A stretch of 64,000 bases of DNA, taken from the NCBI GenBank assembly GCA_029268515.1, contig JAQWNP010000010.1, forward strand, positions 1-64,000. The letters run 5' to 3'. Position numbers and translations under genes: made by a program. This DNA is from Phycisphaerales bacterium. GTDB taxonomy: Bacteria > Planctomycetota > Phycisphaerae > Phycisphaerales > SM1A02. The notes under the pieces were generated by a model that was not told the origin of the DNA, ran no database searches, and saw nothing but the letters and a program-made list of their open reading frames with translations. This document shows, piece by piece, positions 4,291 to 64,000 of this stretch (position 1 is the stretch's first letter; each line of letters starts with the position of its first letter).

Positions 4291-6393
4291 TCACCGGCCG
4301 GTGTTTTTTCGCTTACCTTTTCTCGTAATGCCGGCGCGGGAACGGGCCTGGCCGGGACGTTTTTGGCGCCCACGATCGTCAGGTGGGTGATCACCACCAG
4401 CGCGAAGAGCTTCCATCTCGTCTCGGATTGACGCTGCTTTTTCAAATTCTAACTTGTCGGCAGCGGCCAACATATCTTGTTCGAGTACCTCAAGGAGTTC
4501 ATCTCGAGCCTCTGAAGTGGCACCCCGACTACCACTCATTGCAGTTCGGGCTGTGCGGCGAGCCTGAAGTTCCATCTCAATTCCGCGTCGAATAGCCTTC
4601 TGGACAGTCTTGGGTTGGATCCCATGCTCCTGGTTGTACTGATCTTGCAAAGTGCGTCGACGGGAGGTTTCATCCATCGCGGCTTGCATTTGAGGTGTCA
4701 TCTTGTCTGCATAAAGAATGACTCGAGCTCCAACATGTCTTGCTGCGCGACCAATGGTTTGCACCAGACTCGTCTCACTGCGTAGAAATCCGGTCTTGTC
4801 GGCATCAAGGATGCAAACCAGGGCAACCTCCGGAAGATCCAGCCCTTCACGTAAGAGATTGACACCAATCAGCACATCGAATTGGCCTTCTCTCAATTCA
4901 CGTAGGATTTCAAGTCGATCGAGTGTGTCGATATCACTATGTAAAAATCGCACACGCAGCTGGCATTCATCTAGATGGTGGGTGAGCTGTTCAGCTAATC
5001 GTTTTGTAAGCACTGTCACGAGCACGCGATTTCCAGCTGCAGCGCATCGTTGGCATTCTTCAACTAAGTCAGGAACTTGGTTGGTTGCAGCCTTCACCTC
5101 AACCTGTGGATCAAGAATTCCTGTTGGTCGAATGACCTGCTCCACAATCGCACCGCCGCTCAGTTCTAATTCATAGGGCGCTGGCGTAGCAGATACGTGG
5201 ATAATCTGAGGGACGATTTCAGAGAACTCATCAAAAGTAAGTGGGCGATTATCTAAAGCGCTTGGAAGCCGAAAGCCGTGATCGACCAGCACTTGTTTTC
5301 GGGCACGATCGCCGTTGTACATCGCTCGGATCTGTGGAATCGTGACATGTGACTCATCAATGAAGACCAACCAGTCCTTGGGATCACATTCGGGTACATG
5401 ATTAAAATAATCTAGGAGGCATGAAGGGCGATCTCCAGGTGAACGATCTTCAAGCGGCGCTGAGTAATTCTCAATCCCAGAGCAGAAGCCGATTTCTTCA
5501 AGCATCTCTAAGTCATAACGAGTTCGCGCTGCCAGTCGCTGAGCCTCCAAGAGCTTCCCTTGCTTTTTTAATTTTTCGAGTCGGCCTTCTAGCTCTGAAC
5601 GAATGCGATCAATGCCGGGCTTTAGACTCTCATCAGGAAGTACATAGTGTTGTGCTGGAAACAGAAAGTATTGACTCTCAGTTGCGAGTAGTTCACCAGT
5701 GACTGGATTGACTAAGTCAATTCGCTCAATTTCGTCACCGAAGAGTTCAATGCGCACAGAATATTGTTCATATGCAGGAAAGACCTCGATGACATCTCCT
5801 CGAACACGAAAATTGCCTCTCTGAAATTCAATGTCATTTCGTTTGTATTGCATGGCCAGCAGCTTCATGAAGATCTCACGCCGATTTATGGAGGCGCCTT
5901 TTGTGATCGCTAGCATGCGCTGCCCGTATGCTGTTGGCGAACCGAGTCCAAAGATGCAGCTGACTGATGCAACAATGATGACATCGCGCCTTGAGAGTAG
6001 TTGGCTCGTAGCAGCGAGTCGAAGACGGTCAAGATCTTGGTTGCGAGAAGCATCTTTCTCGATGTAAATATCTCTTTGTGGAATGTATGCCTCTGGTTGG
6101 TAGTAATCGTAATAGCTCACGAAATAGCTGACCGCATTATTTGGAAACAGATCTCGCATTTCTTCGTAGAGCTGCGCAGCCAGCGTCTTGTTATGACTCA
6201 TAATGAGCGTTGGTCGCTGGACCTCTTCAATGACATTCGCCATGGTGAAGGTCTTGCCTGTTCCGGTCGCGCCAAGAAGCGTTTGAGCATTGGAGCCGGC
6301 TTGCAGTCCAGCTGTCAGCGCCGCAATAGCGCTGGGCTGATCGCCCATCGGTATAAAGGGGCTCTTGATTTCAAAGCGTTGGTCATCAGCCAT
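4291..6393 (-). CDS. uvrB: UvrABC system protein B, excision nuclease subunit
   Basis: DNA-damage recognition helicase-like subunit of nucleotide excision repair; acts with UvrA and UvrC. From ATG 6393 the protein has 700 residues, close to the usual 670. It shows Walker A GATGTGKT (about 41-48), the tyrosine-rich beta-hairpin YYDYYQPEAYIP, a DESH box, helicase motif VI (QTIGRAARH) and a C-terminal UVR motif (AADKLEFEKAASIRDEM). After the UVR motif comes a tail of about 35 residues rich in Arg and Lys, longer than in most UvrB. The frame is open to 6474, but that start would overlap the permease gene; TACAAT at 6400-6405 lies just 6 nt before ATG 6393 and supports that start. Confidence 0.97.
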   Translation of the reverse strand: MADDQRFEIKSPFIPMGDQPSAIAALTAGLQAGSNAQTLLGATGTGKTFTMANVIEEVQRPTLIMSHNKTLAAQLYEEMRDLFPNNAVSYFVSYYDYYQPEAYIPQRDIYIEKDASRNQDLDRLRLAATSQLLSRRDVIIVASVSCIFGLGSPTAYGQRMLAITKGASINRREIFMKLLAMQYKRNDIEFQRGNFRVRGDVIEVFPAYEQYSVRIELFGDEIERIDLVNPVTGELLATESQYFLFPAQHYVLPDESLKPGIDRIRSELEGRLEKLKKQGKLLEAQRLAARTRYDLEMLEEIGFCSGIENYSAPLEDRSPGDRPSCLLDYFNHVPECDPKDWLVFIDESHVTIPQIRAMYNGDRARKQVLVDHGFRLPSALDNRPLTFDEFSEIVPQIIHVSATPAPYELELSGGAIVEQVIRPTGILDPQVEVKAATNQVPDLVEECQRCAAAGNRVLVTVLTKRLAEQLTHHLDECQLRVRFLHSDIDTLDRLEILRELREGQFDVLIGVNLLREGLDLPEVALVCILDADKTGFLRSETSLVQTIGRAARHVGARVILYADKMTPQMQAAMDETSRRRTLQDQYNQEHGIQPKTVQKAIRRGIEMELQARRTARTAMSGSRGATSEARDELLEVLEQDMLAAADKLEFEKAASIRDEMEALRAGGDHPPDDRGRQKRPGQARSRAGITRKGKRKNTGR

Positions 6394-57441: not shown

Positions 57442-59406
57442 TCAGCGGTGAAGTACGCGTGCCACTGTGGCTGTTTGTACGTCTACCTTGGGCTGTTTCT
57501 TGGTATTCGCAACGATCTGACGGATTGTGCGAGCGATACCAGGAACATCAATGCCTGCTTCCGCTACTTGCTCACTACGAGCACCCTGGTAGATCCAGGT
57601 CTCAGGAAGTCCGAGGCGGGTAATGTTGCTGGAATCGAGGCCTCGCCGATTGGCTGCTTCGAGCACACAGGTGCCAAAACCACCGACGACAGAATGATCC
57701 TCAACGGTGATGATCGGAATGCCACGGCTGATGAGATTCTCAATGAGATCCTCATCGACTGGCTTCGCAAAGCGTGCATCGTAAACATCGATGAGATAGT
57801 CGTCAGATAGTTCATCAAGTGCGTCAAGCGCCGAAATCGCCATTGTTCCATAAGCGAGAACTGCAGCATTGGGCATTTCATGTTGCACCAGAGCTCGGGC
57901 TCTTCCTAATTCAAACGGTGGGCAGTCCGTTCCTAGCATACGATCACTTACATCGTCACGAGGATAGCGGACGGCTGAAAGGCCAGCGTCATACAAACGC
58001 ATGAAGTCCAGTGCCGCATTCAAGCTTGGCTCATCCATTGCAGCCAGAATGGCGGCGTCTGGGAAAACACGAAGAATGCTCACATCACAGAAGCCATGGT
58101 GTACCGCGCCGTCGCCTCCAACCAGGCCCGCACGGTCGAGGCACAAACGCACTGCAAGTCCCTGGAGTGCGACTTCTTGGAATACCTGATCGAATGCACG
58201 TTGAACAAATGTTGAGTACACCGCGAAAAATGGACGGGCACCAGTCTTCGCCATCCCAGCCATCATGTCCATGGCATGAGATTCACAGATGCCTGTATCC
58301 CAAGTTCGATCTGGGAATTGTTCAAGTACCTGTGAAATACCAGTACCGGTCGGCATCGCAGCCGTCGCAGCAACAACACGTTTGTCTTCTGTCATTAAGC
58401 GGGTCATGCCATCGGCAAATGCTGTTGTAAAGCTACGTCCTGATGACTTAAGTTCCACTCGGCACCCATTCACTGAGAAGGGCTTTGGTGCGTGGAACGT
58501 TGTGGCATCGACCTCAGAGAAGTCAAAGCCTTTGCCCTTAATGGTGTGTGCATGCAGCACCAATGGTTTGTTGTAGTTCTTGACAATGAGCAGGGTGTCG
58601 ATCAGGGATGGTAAGTCGTGGCCGTCAATGGGTCCGACGGTTAATAATCCAAACTTCTCGAACCACGAATCAGATGCGACCAGATCTTTGACGACCTCGC
58701 CAGCACGGTGATACATCTCGCCGATCCATTCGCCGCCAGGAACCTTCGCTACGAGGTCTTTGGCTGACTCTTTCATGCCTCGATACGTGCGATTAACACG
58801 CATTCGGTCAAAGTAGCCCGCCACAGCACCTTGTGGCTTTGCAATACTCATGCCGTTGTCGTTCAACACGACGAGAAGCTGACGATTGAGTGTGCCAGCA
58901 TTGTTTAGGCCTTCCATTGCGATGCCATTGACAATACTCGCATCTCCGACCATCGCGACGACACGTCGGCCGCCGGGATTATCTTCTGCAATCGCTTCAC
59001 CACTGACGACATCGCCTCGGGCCATACCAACAGCAGTGGAGATTGCCGTGCCTGCATGTCCAACCATAAACAAGTCATAATCAGATTCGCGTGGATCAGG
59101 GAATCCACCCATACCATCACGCTGTCTTAATCTTGGTAGTAAGTCATAACGGCCGGTGATCAGTTTGTGTGGGTAGCACTGGTGCCCCACATCAAACAAG
59201 AGGCGGTCATGGGAAAAGTCGAAAACGTAGTGCAGTGCCAAGGTCAGCTCAACCACACCCAAGTTGGGTGCAAAGTGACCGCCGCTCTTCATGATCTGTT
59301 CACAAATCACATGACGAATTTCAGCAGCGAGCGTTGGTAATTCATCAACGCTAAGAGCGCGTACGTCCGCAGGTGATTTAATGGATGGGAGATACTTCAA
59401 ATCCAT
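57442..59406 (-). CDS. dxs: 1-deoxy-D-xylulose-5-phosphate synthase
   Basis: First enzyme of the MEP isoprenoid pathway, TPP-dependent. 654 residues: HFAPNLGVVELTLALHYVFD, GHQCYPHKLITGR, TPP-binding GDASIVNGIAMEGLNNAG, AMPTGTG and RAFDQVFQEVALQ, and the C-terminal VEDHSVVGGFGTCV. ATG 59406 lies nine bases after AGG; ATG 59415 is three codons upstream. About 235 nt separate it from the prenyl synthase gene. Confidence 0.96.
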   Translation of the reverse strand: MDLKYLPSIKSPADVRALSVDELPTLAAEIRHVICEQIMKSGGHFAPNLGVVELTLALHYVFDFSHDRLLFDVGHQCYPHKLITGRYDLLPRLRQRDGMGGFPDPRESDYDLFMVGHAGTAISTAVGMARGDVVSGEAIAEDNPGGRRVVAMVGDASIVNGIAMEGLNNAGTLNRQLLVVLNDNGMSIAKPQGAVAGYFDRMRVNRTYRGMKESAKDLVAKVPGGEWIGEMYHRAGEVVKDLVASDSWFEKFGLLTVGPIDGHDLPSLIDTLLIVKNYNKPLVLHAHTIKGKGFDFSEVDATTFHAPKPFSVNGCRVELKSSGRSFTTAFADGMTRLMTEDKRVVAATAAMPTGTGISQVLEQFPDRTWDTGICESHAMDMMAGMAKTGARPFFAVYSTFVQRAFDQVFQEVALQGLAVRLCLDRAGLVGGDGAVHHGFCDVSILRVFPDAAILAAMDEPSLNAALDFMRLYDAGLSAVRYPRDDVSDRMLGTDCPPFELGRARALVQHEMPNAAVLAYGTMAISALDALDELSDDYLIDVYDARFAKPVDEDLIENLISRGIPIITVEDHSVVGGFGTCVLEAANRRGLDSSNITRLGLPETWIYQGARSEQVAEAGIDVPGIARTIRQIVANTKKQPKVDVQTATVARVLHR

Positions 59407-59641
59407 GCGTTGCATCCTGCGTCGTTATCGATGATCATTCGGCAAGCAGCCTTTTTATCTACCCGGCAAACGTAAGGGCGACTGGCTTGTTGTACGAGTG
59501 ATCTGGTTGATTGCGCCCTGGTTTAGCAGAGTTCAGTGTTCTTTTTAGATAGGTCTGCACGAGTGATTCTAGCCCCCATCACGTTAGCCAGACCCACCTC
59601 AGCGGTTCTCAAGGCCCGCCGAAACGATCCATAGGGTACCG

Positions 59642-60535
59642 TCAGTGGCTTCGGATAGCCATAAAGCGACAAAAATCGCGGAGGCCCTCTGCCTCTGGTC
59701 CAAACTGATTGAGTGCCCCTAGGGCCTCCTGACGCAGCTTTTCGATCGTCTGGCGGGTTGCATCGATACCCAAAATACCTGGGTAGGTCATTTTGCCTGC
59801 CGTCTCATCTTTGCCGGTCGCTTTTCCCATGACCTCGGTGGATTGGGTCACATCAAGTAAGTCATCAACAACCTGGAACATCAGGCCCATGGCCTGTCCA
59901 TACTGGGTGATGGCCATCAATTGTGCGTCATCGGCATCACCACAAATGGCGCCCATGCGGCAGGCACACCGAATCAAAGCGCCCGTTTTATTGCGATGGA
60001 TCTCCTCCAGCTGATGTAATTTATCGAGCGATTCATCAACGCCGCCAAGGGTGTCATACACCTGCCCGACAATCATGGCAGTTGTCGCTGCCGCCAGTTC
60101 ATTGCTCAAGAGAGAGCGTGTGCGATCTTCTGCCTCATCCTCAGTGAGCCACGTCAGGGCTAAAGACATCATCACATCACCAGCAAGGATTGCCATTGCT
60201 TCGCCCGAACGAATATGAAGTGTTGGTTGGCCGCGTCGAAGTTCATCATTGTCTAGTGCAGGCAGATCGTCATGAATCAGGCTAAAACAATGGATGAGCT
60301 CGACAGCGGCGGCAGCGCAGCGGGCTTTTTCAATGTCACCGCCCACAGCTTCACAGCTCATGAGTGCCAGCACTGGCCGCACGCGTTTTCCGCCTCCGCA
60401 GACACCGTAGTGGACTGCTTCTGCAAGCTTGGGTGGCAGAGGCTGACGTGATACACGAGCCTGTAGATCTGCATCCACAGCTTCGATCATGGCGTGCATT
60501 GCTGCTGGCGGCTGTGCTTTCGTGGTTGATTTCAT
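59642..60535 (-). CDS. ispA: Polyprenyl synthetase (farnesyl/geranylgeranyl diphosphate synthase)
   Basis: Elongates IPP and DMAPP into C15 or C20 chains. 297 residues from ATG 60535. The first aspartate-rich motif is IHDDLPALDND (DDxxxxD, bacterial FPP type), the second is VVDDLLDV (DDxxD); GGGKRVRP is the usual diphosphate-binding loop. The residue before the first motif is Leu/Ile rather than a bulky aromatic at every position, so product length is uncertain. The frame is open to 60676, but TACAAT at 60543-60548 lies seven bases before ATG 60535. Confidence 0.92.
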   Translation of the reverse strand: MKSTTKAQPPAAMHAMIEAVDADLQARVSRQPLPPKLAEAVHYGVCGGGKRVRPVLALMSCEAVGGDIEKARCAAAAVELIHCFSLIHDDLPALDNDELRRGQPTLHIRSGEAMAILAGDVMMSLALTWLTEDEAEDRTRSLLSNELAAATTAMIVGQVYDTLGGVDESLDKLHQLEEIHRNKTGALIRCACRMGAICGDADDAQLMAITQYGQAMGLMFQVVDDLLDVTQSTEVMGKATGKDETAGKMTYPGILGIDATRQTIEKLRQEALGALNQFGPEAEGLRDFCRFMAIRSH

Positions 60536-60542
60536 GATTGGG

Positions 60543-60548
60543 ATTGTA
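60543..60548 (-). promoter_or_regulatory. Candidate -10 element of a leaderless prenyl synthase transcript
   Basis: Minus-strand TACAAT, seven bases (CCCAATC), then the ATG at 60535. A -35 is not obvious. The geometry is the same as for uvrB, prmC, mnmA and ispG. Confidence 0.45.
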
Positions 60549-60614
60549 GTACTAGGCGGTTCAGTTAGTGGCATTGGACCAATCTGGGCCTGAGCAGGGC
60601 TCCATTTCCTACCA

Positions 60615-60646
60615 ATAACCAACCAATAGAACAGGCTGTTGGTTAT
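60615..60646. promoter_or_regulatory. 9-bp inverted repeat before the ExbB/TolQ-like gene
   Basis: ATAACCAAC (60615-60623) and GTTGGTTAT (60638-60646) are exact inverted copies with a 14-nt spacer, ending 8 nt before the ATG at 60655. TATCAT at 60644-60649 could be the -10 box of that gene, so the repeat would overlap its promoter: an operator layout. An RNA hairpin in the leader is the other reading. Confidence 0.5.
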
Positions 60647-60654
60647 CATGACAG

Positions 60655-61347
60655 ATGATGATTGCCCTGACCACACCTGCCAGTGACGTCTCCTTGCTGA
60701 TCGAGCGCGGTGGGTACGTCATGATACCGCTGCTCATTCTTAGCGCGATTAGCCTTGCATTGATTTTTGAGCGGGCTGTTTTCTGGCTCATCGTTTCAGC
60801 TCGCAGTCGCCCATCGCGACTGGCTCGTCTCTCTGGCGACTTAAGAGTAGGTGATTCTGCAAGTGCCGCCAGAAGCGTTGAAGGTGATCGTTCTGTTTAT
60901 GGTGACTTGGTAAAGAGTCTGCATCAAAATGGCGCAAGTGATGCCGTTGCACTTGAAGTCATCGAGTTATCGCGACCTCGCCTTGATCGTTTTATGGTGG
61001 TCTTATCAACCATCATTACAGCCGCACCATTGTTGGGCATTTTGGGAACGGTGATTGGAATTATCCAGTCCTTTGAGTTACTCGGAGAGCAGTCAACACT
61101 TCAAGATCCTGCGGACGTGGCGGGCGGTATTGCAGCAGCTTTGTTAACCACTGCATTAGGTCTCATCATTGCTCTTATTACACTTTTTCCATACATGCTT
61201 TATCGCTCATGTTCCAATCGCGCCTTGGGCCGTATGGAGATGTTGATTGCAGCAGCGCAACAAGGTGAAGCAATTGGTGGGCGTGAGGTTACGATTGAAC
61301 GGGACAAGCCAAGGCAACCGCATGAACCGGAATTGGCAAAGAAATAG
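60655..61347 (+). CDS. MotA/TolQ/ExbB proton channel family protein
   Basis: 230 residues, three membrane helices (about 20-45, 115-138 and 155-185). The conserved block TAAPLLGILGTVIGIIQSFELL and the third-helix GGIAAALLTTALGLIIALITLFPY identify the family, closest to ExbB/TolQ. These channels need an ExbD/TolR-type partner, yet the next gene is a TraB-family protein and not an ExbD. The C-terminal 35 residues are charged. Energy-coupling target unknown. Confidence 0.9.
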   Translation: MMIALTTPASDVSLLIERGGYVMIPLLILSAISLALIFERAVFWLIVSARSRPSRLARLSGDLRVGDSASAARSVEGDRSVYGDLVKSLHQNGASDAVALEVIELSRPRLDRFMVVLSTIITAAPLLGILGTVIGIIQSFELLGEQSTLQDPADVAGGIAAALLTTALGLIIALITLFPYMLYRSCSNRALGRMEMLIAAAQQGEAIGGREVTIERDKPRQPHEPELAKK

Positions 61348-61388
61348 GCCAAGCAATCGTTTGTTTTTTTCGTCTTCCGAAGGGAGAT

Positions 61389-62669
61389 ATGATGATCTTC
61401 AAAAATATTGTGGGCGTTCTCACGCTCTGTAGTGTTGTTTCCATTGGCTGGGCAGGTGACGAGCAAAACGCAGCGGACGATTCTGCATTCCTTCGCATGA
61501 AGTCAGAGAAAGGCTTGATTGCTTTAGAGGTGGCTGTTCAAACGCTGACCAGTTGTCAGCCTGATGCCCCTGAAGTGCTCCTTGTTGGCGTTGCACACAT
61601 TGCCGAAGCATCTTTTTACGAGGGAATCGATGACATCCTGTCATCTGCGGAGGTCGTGCTTTACGAATCCGTGCTGCCAGCAGGCGCAGATCGCCCCAGT
61701 GGCGAGACGGAAGAACAGCGCATTGAAACAACCCAAGCTTCAATGGCCTTTGTTGGCTCGCTTTTGGCGTGGTCTGAGCAAGTGGAAGGTGCGTCACCGA
61801 AGACACTGGCTGAGCTTGGCGTGAGCATTAAAAAGCTTGATGCTCGGATGGAACGCTGGCTGCAAGAAGCAAGTGTGGATGCCTGGGGGCAGCCGTTGAT
61901 CTATGTGCCGGCTACCCAGGACAGTCCATGGGAGCTCATCAGCCTTGGTAGTGATGGTGTCAGTGGTGGTGATGCTTCAGCCGCAGATCTGCAGCTCAAA
62001 AACAGTTCAGACATTCAGGCGCCAGCAACATCGGGTGATCATGGGTTGCAAGGTCGTCTTGCTGATGCACTGGGACTGGCCTTCCAGCTTGAATCGCTGC
62101 CCTACGACAACCTTTCATGGCGTTGCAGTGATCTGACCTTTGATCGATTGGCCCGTCGAGCGAAAGAGCGTGGCTTTGAGCTCGACTCTTTGGCAGACAC
62201 GTTGGCAGGTTCATCACTACCGGCAAAGTTTGTGAAGACAATTTTGGCGGCCATACCAATGCTTGATGCCATGGCCGGTGGGCGCGTGACTGATGCGCTA
62301 AAGGTCATGATGATTGAGGTACTTAGTGATGAGACGATGATTGAGGCCAGCATGAACTATTTGGGCGAGGGCTTTGCAGAAGTGATTATCAATGATCGCA
62401 ATGAGGCAGTGATGGATGATCTGGCTGAGATCATTCGTGAAGAGCCTGATGTTAAATCGGTGGCCATTTTATATGGAGCCGGACACATGCAAGATTTTCT
62501 TGTGCGACTCAAAGAGCGGTTTTGTTACCAGCCCATCAAGAAACAATGGTTGATTGCGATGGAAGTGGATCTGAATAAGAGTGCTCTATCTCGTATGGAG
62601 TTGGCACAGATTCGAGTAGCGATGAAACGCATGCTTGACATGACGAAGTCGCAGATGGAGTCGCAGTAG
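61389..62669 (+). CDS. TraB-family protein with a GspG-like insert
   Basis: 426 residues with a signal peptide (IVGVLTLCSVVSIGWA). TraB/PrgY/GumN motifs are visible: VGVAHIAEASFYEGI (His70), YESVLP, NDRNEAVMDDLAEII and ILYGAGHMQDFL, the GxxH pair framing the proposed metallopeptidase or maturation site. Between residues of about 112 and 205 is a segment foreign to the family: DAWGQPLIYVPATQDSPWEL, then SLGSDGVSGGDASAADL, which reads like the C-terminal calcium loop of type II pseudopilin GspG. AGGGAG precedes the ATG. TraB function in bacteria is poorly known. Confidence 0.8.
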   Translation: MMIFKNIVGVLTLCSVVSIGWAGDEQNAADDSAFLRMKSEKGLIALEVAVQTLTSCQPDAPEVLLVGVAHIAEASFYEGIDDILSSAEVVLYESVLPAGADRPSGETEEQRIETTQASMAFVGSLLAWSEQVEGASPKTLAELGVSIKKLDARMERWLQEASVDAWGQPLIYVPATQDSPWELISLGSDGVSGGDASAADLQLKNSSDIQAPATSGDHGLQGRLADALGLAFQLESLPYDNLSWRCSDLTFDRLARRAKERGFELDSLADTLAGSSLPAKFVKTILAAIPMLDAMAGGRVTDALKVMMIEVLSDETMIEASMNYLGEGFAEVIINDRNEAVMDDLAEIIREEPDVKSVAILYGAGHMQDFLVRLKERFCYQPIKKQWLIAMEVDLNKSALSRMELAQIRVAMKRMLDMTKSQMESQ

Positions 62670-62675
62670 TACGGT

Positions 62676-62716
62676 GTGCATAAGATACAGGCGCTGTTTG
62701 AGGGTCTCTTATGCGC
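62676..62716. terminator. Possible bidirectional terminator hairpin
   Basis: GCATAAGA (62678-62685) and TCTTATGC (62707-62714) pair exactly and extend by a wobble and a G-C pair; inside lies ACAG-GCG-CTGT. It spans the gap between the convergent TraB and ispG genes and overlaps the ispG stop. There is no T-run, so it is a weak call. Confidence 0.4.
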
Positions 62717-63974
62717 TTGGGTTCGATTGACCGATGGTGATCTTTTCGACTTTGCCGCCGGCAATCTTCTCCAGGCCACTTCCCAGCTCGCCAATTGGAT
62801 CGGGAGGCACAATTTCAACGGACTTGTCGCCAATGTGGGCTTTGCCGTCGATGACGGCCTGTTGGAATCGGACCGTTTCTTCCTTGAGACGTACCAGGAT
62901 TTCCTCTTCTGGAACGTTCGCGACCCGTTCGCCTTGCACATAGATGATGCCGCGGCGATCACCAGCGAAAACAGCCACGTCCGCGCCCTCTGCTTCGCCA
63001 GGCCCATTCACGATGCAACCCATGACAGCAACTTTGATGGGTAAGTGAATTTCGTCAGCGAGCACTTTGCGTACATCTTGGACGAGTGTGAATAAATCAA
63101 CCTGGATTCGACCACAAGTCGGACATGCAATCAGCTCAGCGCCGACGCGCGTTCGCAATCCAAGGCAGTAGAGCATCTCCAGGCCATCTTCAACTTCGTA
63201 GACAGGATCATTTGCATAGCTAATGCGAATGGTGTCTCCGATTCCATTGGCCAGCAGTGAGCCCAGAGCAACGACACTACGAATGGTCCCCGTTTCTTTC
63301 GGGCCGGCATGTGTGACGCCGAGATGCAGTGGATAGTCAAAGCGTTCTGATATTTCGGTATAGGCATCAATAACCAGTTGCGGATCCATCGACTTCGCAC
63401 TGATGCATACATCGTGGAAGTCCCGTTCTTTAAAAATGTCGAGGTACTCTTCGAGTTTAGCAATCATGAGTCCAAGTAAATGTCCTTGGCGGCGGTCGGC
63501 AAAGAACTTGCCAAGCTCTTGCGCTCGCTGTTGCTTGTCCTTGCGTTCGATAATCGATCCTTCGTTGACTCCGATGCGAATCGGCAAGCCTCGCTCTTTA
63601 CAGGCATCGATGACGGCATTGACTTGATCACGATCATAAATATTGCCCGGATTGAGCCGGATCTTATGTACGCCTGCATCAATGGCTTCAAGCGCACGTT
63701 TAAAATGAAAGTGAACATCAGCAACAATTGGTACCGAGACTTGAGGCAGGATCTTTGCGAGTGCCTCGGTGTCTTTCCGTTGTGGCACCGCGACGCGGAC
63801 AATATCTGCACCTGCGGCAGCCATGCGGTTGATCTCTGCCACGCACTTATCAATTTCGTAGGTGTATCCAGCGGTCATGGTCTGGACTGAGACCGGTGCA
63901 TCACCACCGATACGAACAATCCCTGTTCGCTCATCACCAATCGATATCTGTCTCGTTACTCGTCGCGGTTTCAT
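62709..63974 (-). CDS. ispG: (E)-4-hydroxy-3-methylbut-2-enyl-diphosphate synthase
   Basis: Penultimate MEP pathway enzyme, a 4Fe-4S reductase. 421 residues: VSVQTMTAGYT (TIM-barrel start), IVRVAVPQRKD, RLNPGNI, RIGVNEGS and the C-terminal cluster ligands in IACPTCGR and VMGCIVNGPGEA. It is of the shorter bacterial type without the plant/chlamydial insert. ATG 63974 is chosen over TTG 63995. TACAAT at 63981-63986 lies six bases before the ATG. Confidence 0.96.
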   Translation of the reverse strand: MKPRRVTRQISIGDERTGIVRIGGDAPVSVQTMTAGYTYEIDKCVAEINRMAAAGADIVRVAVPQRKDTEALAKILPQVSVPIVADVHFHFKRALEAIDAGVHKIRLNPGNIYDRDQVNAVIDACKERGLPIRIGVNEGSIIERKDKQQRAQELGKFFADRRQGHLLGLMIAKLEEYLDIFKERDFHDVCISAKSMDPQLVIDAYTEISERFDYPLHLGVTHAGPKETGTIRSVVALGSLLANGIGDTIRISYANDPVYEVEDGLEMLYCLGLRTRVGAELIACPTCGRIQVDLFTLVQDVRKVLADEIHLPIKVAVMGCIVNGPGEAEGADVAVFAGDRRGIIYVQGERVANVPEEEILVRLKEETVRFQQAVIDGKAHIGDKSVEIVPPDPIGELGSGLEKIAGGKVEKITIGQSNPSA

Positions 63975-63980
63975 ATTTTT

Positions 63981-63986
63981 ATTGTA
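63981..63986 (-). promoter_or_regulatory. Candidate -10 element of a leaderless ispG transcript
   Basis: Minus-strand TACAAT, six bases (AAAAAT), then the ATG at 63974. The -35 region would lie at or beyond the edge of the window and cannot be judged. Confidence 0.5.
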
Positions 63987-64000
63987 TGGACCCAATGATT

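Follow-up and report, generated by a model that had tools for sequence, protein, structure and literature searches.

A GspG-like pseudopilin domain inserted in a TraB/PrgY/GumN-family protein of Planctomycetota

Proteins of the TraB/PrgY/GumN (TIKI-like) family carry a motif set of two GxxH motifs, a Glu and a basic residue. PMC6254334 proposes that a His-Glu pair, near which a conserved basic residue lies, carries out catalysis in the TIKI family; it describes the Vibrio enzyme as metal-independent and reports no such activity for a Pasteurella toxin of the same superfamily, which is without the catalytic set. The GspG/PulG/EpsG/XcpT proteins are the major pseudopilins of type II secretion systems, and PMC6692295 states that calcium at the corresponding site is important to how PulG folds and assembles and to its stability.

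The window analyzed here is a stretch of 64,000 nucleotides from a Phycisphaerales bacterium (contig JAQWNP010000010.1, positions 1 to 64,000), in which a single gene, named TraB-T2SSG in this study, brings the two families together. We computed its two domains, their insertion point, the conserved residues, the single branch that carries the insert and a recurrent gene pair. The features of the gene are as follows.

61389 to 62669, plus strand: TraB-T2SSG protein, an open frame of 426 aa and a stop codon (Pfam T2SSG and TraB_PrgY_gumN; AlphaFold2)
61389 to 61455, plus strand: N-terminal hydrophobic segment, signal-peptide-like on reading of the sequence, residues ~1-22
61491 to 61697, plus strand: N-terminal half of TraB, residues ~35-103, with GxxH (His70) and the YES motif (Glu93) (conservation; strands and helix in the model)
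61698 to 62039, plus strand: insert region, residues ~104-217, T2SSG/GspG soluble domain and linker (Pfam, relatives without the insert, fold)
61878 to 61898, plus strand: DAWGQPL, residues 164-170, counterpart of the GspG DPWGxP motif (Asp164 and Trp166 conserved)
61938 to 61991, plus strand: counterpart of the calcium loop, ISLGSDGVSGGDASAADL, residues 184-201 (conserved Asp189 and Asp200; aligned to the GspG loop)
62040 to 62573, plus strand: C-terminal half of TraB, residues ~218-395, with Gln233, Asp248, Arg337-Asn338 and the second GxxH (His366) (conservation; Pfam)

A sequence-only reading had placed a GspG-like segment at residues 164 to 200, and its coordinates are exact: counted from the start of the frame at 61389, these residues span 61878 to 61988, and the residues quoted are present. 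At least 491 stretches in genome contigs encode a relative of the protein, and the best 80 of them were analyzed. A frameshift or an assembly fusion was rejected as the source of the frame by a stop-free match in all of these 80 loci.

The host and its insert

The open reading frame holds both halves of a TraB/PrgY/GumN (TIKI-like) domain. Pfam TraB_PrgY_gumN (PF01963) matches residues 270-368 with an E value of 3.5e-6 and 27.5 bits, just above the cut-off of 26.8, and the first half, showing GxxH (His70) and YES (Glu93), lies outside this match. A family alignment (A2) was built from the window protein and 72 of the best 80 of at least 491 loci, with eight near copies left out by eye (L075, L078, L099, L107, L109, L110, L111 and L120). 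The TraB match is found at E 0.01 in 61 of these 73 members, and His70, Glu93, Gln233, Asp248, Arg337, Asn338 and His366 are each present in 73/73. His70, Glu93, Arg337 and His366 would fit the catalytic set proposed for TIKI proteins in PMC6254334; the first Glu of the 2His/2Glu set given there has no counterpart, the residue two positions ahead of His70 being Val68. From these motifs the TraB domain is presumed to be a hydrolase. The protein is probably exported, presumably via Sec, as suggested by a hydrophobic stretch within the first 60 residues in 70/73 members, found by a pattern test and not by a signal-peptide predictor; a lipobox-like pattern was found by the same kind of test in 4/73.

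The insert is a nearly complete GspG soluble domain, located between the Glu93 motif and the helical block from about residue 218. Pfam T2SSG (PF08334) matches residues 109-202 of the window protein over profile positions 8-106 of 108 (E 9.7e-7, 29.3 bits, gathering cut-off 21), and the T2SSG match is seen at E 0.01 in 66 of the 73 family members. The four matches found by phmmer at E ≤10 among PDB sequences are all GspG proteins, the best being XcpT (2kep, E 1e-4, residues 155-201) and the other three having E values of 0.03-0.21. A profile of 66 family inserts reached 2kep at E 2.1e-13, and the eight PDB sequences below E 0.1 with this profile are all major pseudopilins. The underlying alignment (A4) holds 66 of the 73 rows, with L066, L081, L096 and L098 omitted for a changed loop and L127, L130 and L134 for long extra stretches; A4, the insert model and the PDB search are therefore biased towards the standard loop. 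A chance motif is ruled out by the Pfam score above its cut-off together with PDB sequence matches to GspG only. The NCBIfam GspG equivalog TIGR01710 gave E 1e-6, but its 28.8 bits fall far short of the cut-off of 88.85, and the insert should thus be regarded as a homologous domain and not as a GspG pilin. It is without the leader peptide and without the polymerizing N-terminal membrane helix of pilins, and the prepilin cleavage motif was found in 0/73 family members, as against 32/32 pilins with the identical pattern.

Structure prediction was performed with AlphaFold2 on 73 sequences, with Ca2+ outside the prediction. The full window protein was modeled with a pLDDT of 91.3 and a pTM of 0.88; the blocks of the insert reach pLDDT 95-98 up to residue 200, and the linker 91 and then 76. 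The insert by itself (residues 103-210) also folds, with a pLDDT of 92.6 and a pTM of 0.85. When the Foldseek candidates for the full model were re-compared, Vibrio vulnificus GspG (3gn9) came first with Z 10.2 and an rmsd of 2.9 over 95 residues, covering residues 106-204 of the model; the Foldseek search itself gave no match for the full model at E 0.001 or better, with 3gn9 first at 3.1e-3. For the insert alone two matches were obtained at E 0.001 or better, both GspG, and the comparison with 3gn9 gave a TM-score of 0.69, with Z 10.8 and an rmsd of 2.6 over 94 residues. The top eight rows in its Z ranking are major-pseudopilin entries (Z 7.7-10.8), one of them the XcpGHIJK filament model, followed by other pilins at Z 4.7-5.4 and all else at 3.2 or lower. 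A GspG fold is thus predicted both in the full protein and in the isolated insert, and together with the Pfam match it bears out the earlier proposal of a GspG-like domain with a calcium-loop sequence inside a TraB protein. The helical region at about 112-160, suspected to be the rest of the insert, does belong to it: it lies inside the Pfam match and comprises helices at 108-133, 140-148 and 154-161 in the model.

The TraB part of the model gave Z 8.8 to a Tetrahymena complex IV subunit, a weak Z 4.5 to erythromycin esterase EreC and Z 4.1 to RRSP, while a profile of its C-terminal half found nothing at E ≤1 among PDB sequences. The TraB core (model residues ~40-382) is closer to the Tetrahymena mitochondrial subunit (8b6h_DQ) than to EreC.

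Conservation within the insert is concentrated in the DAWG and calcium-loop positions, which are its best-kept part. With segment limits of our own choice, the mean frequency of the majority residue is 0.72 for residues 164-170 and 0.64 for 184-201, compared to 0.39 for 106-163, 0.31 for 171-183 and 0.40-0.54 for the TraB segments. Asp164 is present in 73/73 members and Trp166 in 72/73. Asp189 and Asp200, acidic positions to which we presumably can assign the Ca2+ ligand residues of the GspG loop, are each kept in 69/73 and both in 67/73. The six exceptions are L066, L081, L096, L098 and, with Asn in place of Asp189, L131 and L139; the loop is shorter in others that keep both Asp, e.g. L080, L083 and L097. 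Binding of Ca2+ at residues 184-201 is suggested by the loop sequence, and calcium dependence of the protein is plausible in view of the 67/73 members that keep both acidic positions. The loop is lost or changed in the six members above and in three more distant relatives, which implies that Ca2+ is not indispensable everywhere. In the latter (L161-L163, from genomes G096, G198 and G135), helix and DAWG are kept and the calcium loop is lost by our reading, so that they constitute a natural test of the purpose of the loop.

Distribution and origin of the insert

Matches to the window protein were found in 47 of 61 genomes (its own and relatives). They cover the TraB parts in 40 and, by reading of the match ranges, the T2SSG segment alone in seven (G006, G037, G040, G041, G045, G046 and G053), which are therefore probably pilins. 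The nearest named relative among the matches listed is an uncultured Phycisphaerae bacterium with 75 percent identity, and insert-bearing relatives were found down to 28 percent. Record titles name a planctomycete in 75 of the best 80 of at least 491 loci and a member of the Acidobacteriota in one. The latter (L140, WYBR01000112.1) is titled Vicinamibacteraceae, yet its TraB protein falls inside the planctomycete branch, and it is probably a mislabeled bin.

A profile of the C-terminal half of TraB matched in 83 of 294 genomes of the phylum. We read the 29 best-scoring relatives besides the window's own; the insert is present, intact or worn, in eight and absent from 21, counts that represent the best-scoring matches and not a census. 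The interval from the Glu motif to the FQ motif is 28-37 residues long in relatives without the insert (18 of the 21 could be measured by patterns) and 125-159 in the insert-bearers measured, for which slightly different patterns were used. The sequence-only reading had allowed that the segment might be ordinary in all TraB homologues; its absence from 21 of 29 relatives, which have a short link instead, rules this out, and the search for further TraB proteins with the insert was answered by the family of 73 and by the eight phylum loci.

Phylogenetic trees were constructed for the TraB parts and for the domain itself, both by "quick" searches with SH-aLRT support only; both are unrooted, and long rows were flagged and kept. 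In the TraB-only tree, with the insert columns excluded, 81 rows with the insert and 21 without it are parted by one branch with SH-aLRT 99 and one change. It comprises 73 + 29 rows; the 29 were labeled from a reading of their translations, and two rows (L133 and L159) come from the same contig. No row without the insert was found inside the insert side of this sampled tree. In the domain tree, 33 inserts (every second of the 66 rows) and 32 GspG pilins of the same order are likewise separated by one branch with SH-aLRT 99. One capture followed by vertical descent within Planctomycetota is apparently the simplest account, with one loss formally possible in an unrooted tree; capture is favored over loss because the rows without the insert resemble ordinary TraB proteins and the insert resembles a pilin domain. 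A wider theme of T2SSG fusions was also considered and rejected: each of 11 long frames read among the matches listed ends in a normal pilin, whose own leader motif immediately precedes the T2SSG match, and these frames are long because they run through high-G+C DNA ahead of the pilin.

The insert could be purely structural filler, a stable fold dependent on Ca2+ whose capture was accidental and which is kept only because TraB packs against it. The conservation of its structural motifs while the remainder drifts would suit such filler, and so would the loss of the loop tolerated in a few lineages. However, relatives as distant as 28 percent identity keep the insert, with no exception on its side of the sampled tree, a persistence that is long for filler; we consider this explanation rather unlikely, although it is the strongest of the alternatives.

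Gene neighborhood and the question of type II secretion

One further feature lies directly upstream of the TraB-T2SSG gene.

60655 to 61347, plus strand: gene of the MotA/TolQ/ExbB proton-channel family, 230 aa (Pfam MotA_ExbB, E 1e-24)

In the window 41 bp separate its stop from the TraB start. With scores well under the curated thresholds for the tolQ (62 vs 221 bits) and exbB equivalogs, this gene is a divergent member of its family. The sequence-only reading had proposed to look at the neighbors of insert-bearing TraB genes, and this gene turned out to be the recurrent partner: among the best 80 of at least 491 loci, of which 75 have at least 700 bases upstream and 77 downstream, tblastn found an ExbB-like gene immediately upstream of TraB, in the same orientation, in 61. 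The distance from its stop to the chosen TraB start ranges from -13 to 144 bases in these 61 loci and is -4 in 27 of them, a value that is a usual sign of translational coupling. The two genes probably form an operon and for this reason probably serve one envelope process; co-expression and joint action of their products would follow from such an arrangement. The pairing is absent in 19 of the same best 80 loci, four of them with fewer than 1600 bases upstream, and in seven of the eight distant insert-bearers (164-891 bases upstream), the exception L159 being on the same contig as L133. It is thus younger or less general than the insert. In the 21 loci without the insert (218-1194 bases upstream) no ExbB-like gene was found upstream.

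Genes of the isoprenoid pathway surround the pair. Within 57442-63995 of the window, dxs and farnesyl diphosphate synthase lie beyond the ExbB-like gene and ispG follows TraB, all on the opposite strand and each above an NCBIfam cut-off; dxs is present in 51, ispA in 54 and ispG in 49 of the best 80 of at least 491 loci.

ExbB-type channels normally act through ExbD/TolR. No match to ExbD was found on the contig of the TraB-T2SSG gene, and no exbD stands beside the ExbB-like gene; the seven ExbD and six ExbB matches of its own genome adjoin one another at three other sites. These data also bear on an auto-inhibitory or pseudo-substrate role, by which the insert would keep the active site of TraB blocked as long as Ca2+ has not fallen and no partner has drawn the insert away. 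The position between Glu93 and Gln233, the invariant active-site residues with a conserved loop, and a neighboring channel gene that could supply force would agree with this role, but the force would have to come from a channel whose customary ExbD is missing from the contig. We regard auto-inhibition as improbable.

A tie to a type II secretion system had also been put forward from the sequence alone. In a tie of this kind, the GspG domain would be a docking tag for the pseudopilus or secretin, and the TraB protein would be a substrate of the system, its regulator or a protease for processing. The likeness of the domain to GspG is real, and the own genome encodes two GspG-GspF pairs (contigs C6 and C17), away from which these contigs also carry a secretin; the TraB-T2SSG gene is on C10. 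Moreover, a pilin-like gene was found downstream on the other strand in 55 of the best 80 of at least 491 loci, within 300 bases in 51, and the one such neighbor tested has an N-methylation motif (E 1.1e-4). It is a large gene, e.g. 5231-6271 on the minus strand of L067, and is absent from the window, where ispG directly follows TraB.

Seven queries were used to search the neighborhoods for secretion genes. The working ones, a GspF-family protein from contig C2 and GspG from C6, each found 27 of 30 control loci and no gene outside TraB in the best 80 of at least 491 neighborhoods. The GspF query from C6 and both secretin queries found 0/30 controls; the control loci span about 1.5 kb beside GspG, and these were longest-frame queries, maybe in wrong frames. 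The single match outside TraB (L123) came from that GspF query and is set aside. Of 61 relatives, 60 have T2SSG proteins, with the TraB-T2SSG protein or without it, and co-occurrence is thus uninformative on the link. What the insert conserves is mainly DAWG and the calcium-loop residues, and the leader and membrane helix of pilins are absent. The proposed tie is therefore not supported, with no pilin leader or membrane helix, no neighboring GspF or GspG found in the 80 loci, and the GspG-GspF pairs on other contigs. Beyond homology, which by itself leaves room for the tie, and a pilin-like neighbor missing in the window, nothing here favors a role in type II secretion, and we judge such a role quite unlikely.

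Possible roles and comparison with known systems

The reading that we consider best, and hold with middling confidence, is an exported TraB hydrolase with a calcium-stabilized accessory domain close to its active site. A GspG soluble domain would have been inserted into a TraB/PrgY/GumN (TIKI-like) protein, apparently once, within Planctomycetota, and kept since. It would have brought along the calcium loop and left behind the leader peptide and the membrane helix that enable pilins to polymerize. The domain is expected to fold around one Ca2+ outside the cytoplasm. It starts about ten residues past Glu93 and ends just before the Gln233 block and is hence flanked in sequence by active-site motifs; judging from this insertion point, it may stand next to the active site of TraB as a rigid wall or lid. 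In that position it could set which substrate or partner is accepted by the presumed hydrolase, and the products of the ExbB/TolQ-type gene and the TraB-T2SSG gene probably serve one process of the envelope. In a bolder form of this idea, the pilin domain would be the lid of a TIKI-type protease in the periplasm, sensing Ca2+, responding to force or to a partner, and driven or gated by an ExbB-type proton channel without ExbD; this is highly speculative, and we give it little credence. If true, it would represent a new kind of energized envelope protease made from parts of the secretion and TonB systems.

The TraB and GspG parts are known separately; their combination, its conservation and its ExbB-like neighbor were not found described in the open-licence full texts searched. 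The protein offers a first testable handle on a TraB protein of Planctomycetota, through Ca2+, removal of the insert and the ExbB-like partner. As the insertion point can be identified, relatives without the insert exist and the origin lies on a single branch, the states before and after can be made and compared. Annotation by T2SSG only can mislabel proteins of this kind as parts of a secretion system.

Compared with TraB/PrgY/GumN (TIKI) proteins of PF01963, the window protein has the same two GxxH motifs, Glu, Arg-Asn and order of elements, and differs in an insert of about 100 residues in place of the short link of relatives without it. To GspG/PulG/EpsG/XcpT (PF08334) it is alike in the fold, the DxWG motif and the calcium-loop sequence over residues ~106-204, whereas here the domain sits inside another protein, has no leader or membrane helix, falls below the GspG equivalog cut-off and is encoded outside a gsp cluster. 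The modular pilins, among them PilB of Streptococcus sanguinis (PMC8179133), also combine the pilin fold with a foreign domain. There, the extra domain is attached to a pilin that has kept its role in building pili; here, the pilin domain has no membrane helix and lies inside an enzyme-type fold, a clear case of a filament-building domain reused in such a fold.
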